Positions 24,675-25,919 of a stretch of DNA of 25,919 nucleotides are shown piece by piece. The translations under genes and the position numbers were made by a program. Under the pieces are notes generated by a model. The model was not told the origin of the DNA. It did no database searches and saw only the letters and a list, made by a program, of their open reading frames with translations. Within the stretch, counting starts at the first letter, position 1; each line of letters starts with the position of its first letter. This stretch comes from a virus: positions 1-25,919 of IMG/VR virus record IMGVR_UViG_3300025086_000207; one strand, 5' to 3'.

Positions 24675-24851
24675 ATGAGTGAGGCGAGGACGTTTGATGA
24701 GAAGCTTAACTCTTGCCGCGATATTGAAGAGCTTGAGGGTTTCGCTAACCGCCGTCGCTTTAATCCTGCGTTGCCCAAGTGGTCGGAGGATGAAAGACGA
24801 AAGATAATATTTAGAAAAGCGGAAATGATAAACAAAAGGAAAAAGAAATGA
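24675..24851 (+). CDS. small basic protein (58 aa)
   Basis: 58 aa from ATG 24675, chosen over in-frame ATG 24606 because the latter would run through the iterons and TTGGAG sits 5-9 bases before 24675. Starts MSEARTFDEKLNSCRDIEEL, continues with FANRRRFNPALPKWSEDERR and ends in Lys/Arg (NKRKKK). A two-helix, DNA-binding-like small protein; no family recognised. ATGA overlap with the next gene. Confidence 0.6.
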   Translation: MSEARTFDEKLNSCRDIEELEGFANRRRFNPALPKWSEDERRKIIFRKAEMINKRKKK

Positions 24852-25162
24852 ACGACAAGGTTATACCGACTGAGAAGAAAATTGTTTTGCCGGAAAATGT
24901 AAGGTCGAGCGTTTTGCTTGAGGCTGGTGAACTTATCAATGGTGCGCGCCAAATACATTACGGACAGCCAAAAGAAAACTTTGAAACGACTGCCGCATTA
25001 TTTGGTGCATACTTGGGGTGTGATATTAGCGCCGCAGACGTGTGTCACCTAATGGCGCTTCTCAAAATTGCGAGGCTGCGCAATGGTGGCCATAGGGATT
25101 CGAGCGTGGACAGTTGTGGGTATATGGCGCTGGGTGCGGAAATGTCAGACGCGGGGACTTGA
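24848..25162 (+). CDS. DUF6378-like protein (104 aa)
   Basis: 104 aa. Contains LLEAGELINGARQIHYGQPK, ENFETTAALFGAYLG, then ADVCHLMALLKIARL and GHRDSSVDSCGYMALGAEMS. This matches the phage family DUF6378, whose helical pattern, with acidic residues spaced for metal (E26, E43, D96-type positions), recalls MazG-like nucleotide pyrophosphohydrolases. The MazG link is a family-level suspicion, not shown here. It may tune nucleotide pools during replication. The stop overlaps the -35 of the promoter for the structured RNA. Confidence 0.7.
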   Translation: MNDKVIPTEKKIVLPENVRSSVLLEAGELINGARQIHYGQPKENFETTAALFGAYLGCDISAADVCHLMALLKIARLRNGGHRDSSVDSCGYMALGAEMSDAGT

Positions 25163-25188
25163 TGTGAGGCTCTCTGGTGGGGTATAGT
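25159..25188 (+). promoter_or_regulatory. sigma70-type promoter for the leader RNA
   Basis: TTGATG (25159-25164), an 18-bp spacer, TATAGT (25183-25188). Spacer and -10 equal those of the virion-operon promoter at 1447. Expected start is about 25195, the first base of the structured RNA. The -35 overlaps the stop codon of the DUF6378-like gene. Confidence 0.6.
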
Positions 25189-25194
25189 GGTCGT

Positions 25195-25293
25195 GCGGGG
25201 TTGTTTCCTCCCAAACCTGTTTTGCATCTTCCACCCGCGAAACAGCTAACTCCGACAACTAAGCCCGCGTAAATAATACGTGGGCTTTTTTTT
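25195..25293 (+). ncRNA. structured leader RNA/attenuator candidate (about 99 nt)
   Basis: Bounded by a promoter and an intrinsic terminator. P1: 25195-25204 (GCGGGGTTGT) pairs with 25255-25259 (ACAAC) and 25264-25268 (CCCGC), ten pairs with a 4-nt bulge and possible wobbles outside. P2 inside it: CTGTTTTGC (25217-25225) with GCGAAACAG (25237-25245), nine pairs, 11-nt loop. A C-rich strand TTTCCTCCC (25204-25212) stays unpaired. P1 uses bases of the terminator's 5' arm, so the two cannot coexist. It may be a riboswitch-like attenuator of the 68-aa gene or a free small RNA. No known riboswitch class was recognised. Confidence 0.55.
25261..25293 (+). terminator. strong intrinsic terminator ahead of the 68-aa gene
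   Basis: AAGCCCGCGT (25261-25270) pairs with ACGTGGGCTT (25278-25287) over ten positions with one G-T wobble, loop AAATAAT, then an eight-T run (25286-25293). TGGAG, the ribosome-binding site of the next gene, follows at once. A terminator 9 bases before a start codon is the classic place for attenuation. Confidence 0.9.
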
Positions 25294-25302
25294 GGAGAAA
25301 GC

Positions 25303-25509
25303 ATGGCATACGAATTAAAATTAGTTTTAAATTTAAAGTGTGAAGATAATGAAGAGCAGATGGATGAGACTGAAATGCTAACGAGTTATTTAGGTGAGAG
25401 ATTGGTAAATAATGCTGACCCAAATAGGTTGATGCAAAGCCTTGCGGAAGCTTTGATTGAAATGGACAGCGAGGATATATTTAAAATAGATGCAAGGACA
25501 ATGCATTGA
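25303..25509 (+). CDS. small acidic protein under attenuator control (68 aa)
   Basis: 68 aa with GGAG just before the ATG. Starts MAYELKLVLNLKCEDNEEQM (a beta-strand then an acidic stretch) and ends with helix-rich LMQSLAEALIEMDSEDIFKI. No family recognised. It is the only gene between the leader RNA and the dif-like region, so its level would be set by read-through of the terminator. It may be a regulator or the first gene of a transcript reaching the terminase. Confidence 0.6.
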   Translation: MAYELKLVLNLKCEDNEEQMDETEMLTSYLGERLVNNADPNRLMQSLAEALIEMDSEDIFKIDARTMH

Positions 25510-25681
25510 GTTGCTGTTGTGCTATATGTCCTCTGCAAGACGCACCGACAGCAAAGCGCAGGCGCGCGCGAGTAAATCATTTTGTGGGGTACGTCAATAC
25601 CCCAAAAGCTTTACCAAGGGCTTTCATATGCGACATTGATACCCCAGAAATAGCTATGTCATTGTTTCCATTACATAATAA
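25510..25681 (+). other. gene-free region left of the dif-like site, with TACCCCA repeats
   Basis: No convincing gene. TGGGGTA (25585-25591) and TACCCCA (25598-25604) form a 7-bp hairpin with a 6-nt loop; a further TACCCCA lies at 25640-25646. Two open frames (TTG 25506-25709 and a 37-aa one near 25525) have odd composition and no ribosome-binding site. Its length (about 170 bp) is similar to that of accessory sequences beside plasmid Xer sites, but it lies on the XerD side here. Confidence 0.45.
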
Positions 25682-25709
25682 ATTTAACATAATGCGTATT
25701 ATGCGATAA
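25682..25709 (+). other. XerCD dif-like recombination site
   Basis: Left arm ATTTAACATAA (25682-25692), 6-bp centre TGCGTA, right arm TTATGCGATAA (25699-25709). On the opposite strand this reads TTATCGCATAA, TACGCA, TTATGTTAAAT. The E. coli dif arms are GGTGCGCATAA and TTATGTTAAAT: the XerD arm is identical at 11 of 11 bases, and the XerC arm keeps the inner CGCATAA. The centre differs from chromosomal TGTATA, as in known phage-borne sites such as that of CTXphi. No recombinase gene is present in the window, so host XerC/XerD would be needed. Possible uses are integration at host dif or resolution of genome multimers. Confidence 0.8.
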
Positions 25710-25855
25710 TGGCGCAAAATTACCCCCCCCCGCCAAAGATTTTGCTAGGGTTTGTTTATGTATAATCCGACGCACACGCTTGCCCCCCGCCACCCCCCCC
25801 CTTGCCTTACTGCGCAGGCTTAATGTAAAATTTTAAAAAAACTGGAGTTTATTTA
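25710..25855 (+). promoter_or_regulatory. terminase upstream region: poly-C tracts and TATAAT box
   Basis: No gene. C9 at 25723-25731, then TATAAT at 25761-25766 (no convincing -35), then C6-GCCA-C9 at 25783-25801. The opposite strand is therefore G-rich and could form a quadruplex. A transcript from the TATAAT box would carry the second C-tract in its leader. CTGGAG (25842-25847) is the ribosome-binding site of the next gene. Confidence 0.5.
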
Positions 25856-25919
25856 ATGGCAGGCAGAGCTTTACGGCGCAGAATTTTAGGTGAGATTAAG
25901 AGCAAGGGCGGCGCAGATT
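25856..25919 (+). CDS. start of probable terminase small subunit (3' truncated)
   Basis: Only 21 residues are in the window: MAGRALRRRILGEIKSKGGA then D. The start is clear (CTGGAG 8 bases upstream). A basic opening followed by ILxEIxxKGG resembles the first helix of HTH-type small terminase subunits or other phage HTH proteins, in which an HTH for pac/cos recognition follows. The absence of terminase genes elsewhere in the window and the end-of-early-region position support this, but the fragment is too short for certainty. Confidence 0.45.
   Translation, partial: MAGRALRRRILGEIKSKGGAD

Follow-up and report, generated by a model that had tools for sequence, protein, structure and literature searches.

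A conserved structured RNA with an exposed pyrimidine motif, linked to a small acidic protein gene in a family of phages

What role is played by the short RNA that a promoter-like sequence and a terminator delimit immediately upstream of a small acidic protein gene in this phage? The window, which is the whole stretch of DNA that was analysed, is a 25.9-kb virus record (25,919 nt; IMGVR_UViG_3300025086_000207) from a phage whose portal is of the SU10 type. The nearest cultured relative of its portal is from Octadecabacter Antarctic DB virus 2 (46% identical) and a related terminase (84%) sits on a contig binned as Rhodobacteraceae. Because the portal relative infects Octadecabacter and because of this terminase assignment, the host is probably, though not certainly, a Rhodobacteraceae bacterium. 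The RNA is flanked upstream by a gene coding a 104-residue DUF6378 protein (24848–25162, + strand; Pfam PF19905, E 1.2e-25), and a DUF6378-like protein is also encoded directly 5′ of the RNA in relatives L316 and L317. Downstream lies the gene of a 68-residue acidic protein (25303–25509, + strand), identified with its family by alignment, whose ribosome-binding site (RBS) GGAG is found at 25294–25297. Uncultured marine phages have so far provided few examples of structured regulatory RNAs.

A sigma70-type promoter, TTGATG-18-TATAGT, is predicted by consensus scan at 25159–25188 (+ strand), its -35 box overlapping the 3′ end of the DUF6378 gene; none of 200 shuffles of the region scored equally high. 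Its -10 box and spacing are, as the original prediction had it, those of the virion promoter (TTGTTA-18-TATAGT, ending at 1476) that precedes the virion gene at 1508, and TTG-type -35 boxes recur at a similar distance in most groups of relatives. Transcription from this promoter would yield an RNA of about 99 nt (25195–25293, + strand), whose fold of -34.7 kcal/mol compares with -19.5 +/- 3.1 kcal/mol for shuffled sequences (z -4.8). In the minimum-energy structure three helices stand together. The outer helix P1 joins CGGGGUUG (25196–25203) to UAACUCCG (25247–25254), with pair probabilities of 0.90–0.99 for seven of its eight pairs. It encloses the motif UUUCCUCCC (25204–25212), which is unpaired in the fold, and P2 (25217–25245, pairing 25217–25225 with 25237–25245), the 9-bp inner hairpin that had already been noticed and that folding recovers. 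The single-stranded linker ACAACU (25255–25260) then leads to the strong intrinsic terminator proposed earlier (25261–25293), which combines an 11-bp stem (25261–25287) and a U-run and at which transcription would end in vivo. GTTTCCTCCC is found once in the window.

The original prediction had proposed another P1, in which GCGGG pairs with CCCGC and GUUGU with ACAAC in competition with the terminator. This structure can be drawn, yet it reaches only -22.7 kcal/mol against -34.7 kcal/mol and its pair probabilities in the full RNA are below 0.005. GCGGG/CCCGC, with part of GUUGU/ACAAC, is the minimum only for transcripts cut at 75–85 nt. The favoured P1 coexists with the terminator, and mutual exclusion between an antiterminator and a terminator is not supported. 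The folds portray the proposed antiterminator as a transient alternative that is not conserved, and this energy deficit of 12 kcal/mol together with its non-conservation led to its rejection as a conserved helix.

Relatives were collected by anchoring on the 68-residue protein gene and on terminase genes. Among the IMG/VR matches listed, the gene family has at least 89 distinct upstream regions, which form 18 sequence groups. All 89 share a common layout. A promoter is followed by P1, in whose loop a UCCUCCC-type motif is unpaired, then by an ACU linker (seen by inspection of group representatives) and a second hairpin. In most cases a U-run comes after this hairpin; two groups (20 sequences) have none. 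The pyrimidine motif is present in 89/89 relatives, against a background frequency of 2.2% in 70-mers drawn at random from these phages. Representatives of all 18 groups fold as P1, motif and second hairpin, the motif being mostly unpaired (60–100%). When the 3′ arm of the terminator was left out, P1 was still the minimum in 12/18 representatives. Pairing between the 5′ strand and the 5′ arm of the terminator replaced P1 in only three of them: the window, L006, which is its sister group, and one further group; this is modelling evidence against a conserved switch, and is not proof that the phage of the window has none.

The covariance model R1, built from 11 relatives with the group of the window left out, matches the window at 25193–25293, over its full length and at the expected place and strand. 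This is the only one among the matches listed there and its E-value of 0.34 in 405 kb is weak by itself. Because the window was among the sequences from which a second model, R2, was built, the 43 bits that R2 gives there carry no independent weight. Each of 74 loci is recovered a single time by R2, which in near-complete phages gives one match per record where the element is detected, apart from one record with a weak second match. Four of 12 near-complete records gave no match; since the element is visible in loci from several of these, R2 is not fully sensitive for some groups. Alignment A6 has two-sided changes in 14/16 modelled pairs, including 9/9 of the second helix, a count that is biased upward because A6 was fitted to the model; its covariation score is 0.67 versus 0.18 when shuffled and at most 0.13 when slid. 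The unfitted MAFFT alignment A5 shows two-sided changes in six of nine second-hairpin pairs and none in P1, so support for P1 comes from the wider set and from independent folds with unrelated P1 sequences. P2 is kept in L006, where CUGUUU/AAACAG becomes CUGCUU/AAGCGG with one two-sided change, and the P1 of L006 is shorter than that of the window. The GUUGU/ACAAC pairing of the P1 in the original prediction is broken in L006 (GUUAU).

Present in a family of marine, uncultured phages, the element is a member of an RNA family that is absent from Rfam and was previously uncatalogued. An Rfam search with the window and 11 relatives gave no match at the gathering score, in agreement with the earlier statement that no known riboswitch class is recognised. 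Matches to the Betaproteobacteria toxic sRNA (RF02278, 20 bits) and to Leu_leader (RF00512, 25 bits), whose cut-offs are 50 each, were driven by the terminator with little well aligned beyond it and were judged to be due to chance. Neither the region nor two distant 66-residue proteins had a BLAST match among 50,697 phage records. Chromosomal homologs were sought in 295 Rhodobacteraceae genomes with stricter filters, by which weak homologs could be missed. Apart from a match in G179 that was judged to be due to chance, all matches lay on phage contigs binned with G001.

The RNA is linked to the small gene in this phage family. Conservation of a structured RNA tied to this gene, anticipated for the window, holds for 89/89 upstream regions of the gene family. 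As these regions were found via the gene, a reverse search covered 1.29 Mb of DNA from related phages in which the gene had not been detected. It gave three matches, two of which proved to be gene-bearing and one of which is likely due to chance. The encoded proteins are 64–69 residues long and acidic, and most members end in T-x-H. The AF2 model of the 68-residue protein (pLDDT 80.5) is mainly composed of two helices, and the protein has no significant match in Pfam, PHROG or PDB (by fold and by profile). In L145, L183 and many other relatives a second terminator, GCCCGGCGCGGTGGCCGGGC, is found directly 3′ of the 66-residue protein gene, so that RNA and gene make up a self-contained unit.

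The explanation to which we give moderate credence is that the element is a phage-encoded regulatory base-pairing sRNA, functionally like alphaR8 and CcsR RNAs rather than a demonstrated member of either family, and co-encoded with the small protein. The RNA would be transcribed from its own promoter and end at the intrinsic terminator. P1 would hold the UCCUCCC-type pyrimidine stretch open, for which compensatory changes and the folds of 18 groups give support. Judged from its letters, this exposed motif is an anti-Shine-Dalgarno sequence; since it is complementary to Shine-Dalgarno sequences, the RNA most likely pairs with mRNA ribosome-binding sites and would lower their translation. The model for such pairing is provided by alphaR8 and probably also by the CcsR RNAs of such hosts. 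The small acidic protein would be made by readthrough and is probably part of the same circuit. The riboswitch logic that had been proposed, in a description that omitted the motif, is at odds with a conserved core that is an exposed anti-Shine-Dalgarno pyrimidine motif and not a ligand pocket. General features of phage base-pairing sRNAs are present: an own promoter, an intrinsic terminator (with the two groups that have no U-run as exceptions) and a conserved accessible seed.

The main rival, which we hold to be possible but doubtful, is a cis-acting leader of the 68-residue protein gene that controls readthrough or translation, perhaps via the protein product or a host protein, and that is no classic riboswitch. 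The gene is accompanied by the RNA in 89/89 regions, and the search of the 1.29 Mb turned up no case of the RNA alone; this strict one-gene linkage counts against a free sRNA in that it also fits a cis role. The second hairpin ends near the start codon, and the two groups that have no U-run fit a 5′ UTR better, as the RNA would there be part of the mRNA. The motif also pairs better with the RBS of the 68-residue protein gene than with that of the DUF6378 gene in 10/13 groups. Against a leader, the motif is a generic anti-Shine-Dalgarno sequence common to host trans-acting RNAs, there is no conserved alternative fold, and the gene's own RBS is not a preferred partner among all genes of near-complete phages. 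The latter comparison used duplex energies between the RNA and all called start regions in genomes with an identifiable member of the 68-residue protein gene family; the gene caller is simple and favours starts with good Shine-Dalgarno sites, which makes the controls conservative. No phage start region was consistently best: among 41–59 genes the 68-residue protein gene ranked 4th–39th and the terminase small subunit gene (terS) 1st–42nd. The own RBS was accordingly discarded as a conserved target, as was the terS RBS as a general one because its rank drops to 42nd outside L220. The L220 terS start is an outlier, with about -27 kcal/mol and several CUCCCA/UGGGAG or CUCCCG/CGGGAG matches. Note that the terS 5′ UTR sequence CGGGAGAUAGGAGAAC, found in L220 and also in the L231 group, is complementary, over ~14 pairs, to the RNA of the same phage, the strongest pairing found in the L220 genome. 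Under the base-pairing sRNA reading, the RNA may act on mRNAs or partner sRNAs of the host and not on a single gene of the phage.

Late control of the type seen at lambda pR'-tR', in which the transcript of a constitutive promoter is short and terminated and a phage-encoded antiterminator opens the late genes, would suit the location of the element between replication genes and the terminase and the terminator placed ~100 nt from the promoter; we regard it as improbable, as the conserved P1 and anti-Shine-Dalgarno motif are not needed for it, two groups have no U-run, the element is 1.1–1.4 kb upstream of terS in some relatives versus 0.6 kb, and terS has a promoter-like site of its own. This site, TTGCCT-18-TAAAAT (25802–25831, + strand; consensus scan), precedes the terS ATG at 25856, and a GTAAAAT-type -10 box is found upstream of terS in most relatives. 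The terminase had been named as a possible target of the element; with a promoter-like site of its own, it could be expressed here without readthrough. The weakest account is the attenuator or riboswitch in which ACAAC and CCCGC are captured by the 5′ end so that the terminator cannot form, very unlikely in spite of being the minimum for cut transcripts, given its lower stability with the complete terminator, the rarity of an equivalent pairing (two of the three cases being the window and its sister L006), the broken pairing in L006 and the lack of an Rfam class.

The region between the small gene and terS has features of its own. The window is noncoding for ~350 nt (25510–25855) and a similar block is found upstream of terS in many relatives. 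It carries an inverted repeat of the TTTAACATAATACGNATTATG type together with long C-runs that differ in length between near-identical contigs, and is possibly a packaging site or origin. Relatives without the cassette (L192, L195, L197, L201, L206) have an AT-rich perfect hairpin, e.g., TATTATTATTATTTATCTCTGATAAATAATAATAATA, at a similar distance from terS.

The RNA family described here is widespread (the distinct versions counted above being those among the IMG/VR matches listed), has strong covariation support, is not in Rfam and is locked to one small protein without recognised relatives. The RNA exposes a sequence that could cover ribosome-binding sites and in every case precedes the same small gene, which suggests that these phages employ an RNA regulator similar to those found in their bacterial hosts. 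Two host RNA families have active cores that this motif matches, and this makes phage takeover of host riboregulation directly testable. We make no claim of common ancestry with alphaR8 or CcsR from these sequence matches, because convergence on an anti-Shine-Dalgarno sequence would give the same sharing.

Caulobacter alphaR8 RNAs were shown to act through an unpaired UUUCCUCCCU core (PMC12559287). Like alphaR8/mmgR (RF00519; SisA-D of Caulobacter), the window RNA is short, ends in an intrinsic terminator, exposes an unpaired UUUCCUCCC core and has ACU before the terminator. The 10-nt single-stranded alphaR8 core is matched in the window at 25204–25212 in 9/10 letters, the last one being A, and the window motif shares GUUUCCUCCC with the Rhodobacteraceae alphaR8 copies found in this analysis. 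The alphaR8 core lies downstream of a weak hairpin whereas that of the window is inside the P1 loop, and the RF00519 scores (13.3 bits for the window, 20.3 for L198) stay below the gathering cut-off of 41. An FGase gene adjoins alphaR8, namely the single copy of most species and not all copies (PMC12559287), whereas the neighbours of the window RNA are the DUF6378 and 68-residue protein genes.

CcsR/cuckoo RNAs likewise have stem-loops exposing CUCCUCC-type motifs. The L220 group shares UCUCCUCCUCCC with CcsR/cuckoo-type loops of Rhodobacteraceae, and the phage RNAs of L231, L299 and L316 carry pyrimidine motifs in both hairpin loops, as do host CcsR/cuckoo units. We take the Rhodobacteraceae arrays to be CcsR/cuckoo RNAs because their CCUCCUCCC stem-loops come in pairs and because the reading frame before them has a DUF1127-like end. 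CcsR/cuckoo units have two stem-loops with CCUCCUCCC-type loops, whereas the window RNA has one motif and a terminator loop without it, does not form a tandem array, adjoins a DUF6378 gene upstream instead of a DUF1127 gene and has a sigma70-like promoter. It may be, and we put this forward only tentatively, that the RNA of these marine phages mimics or competes with the host anti-Shine-Dalgarno regulators alphaR8 and CcsR and, paired with a dedicated protein, reprograms host translation during infection. AgvB and AsxR come from prophages of enterobacteria. Likened by description only, these and other prophage sRNAs resemble the window RNA in being phage-encoded, and they act on host RNA networks, AgvB and AsxR as anti-sRNAs (PMC12559287).
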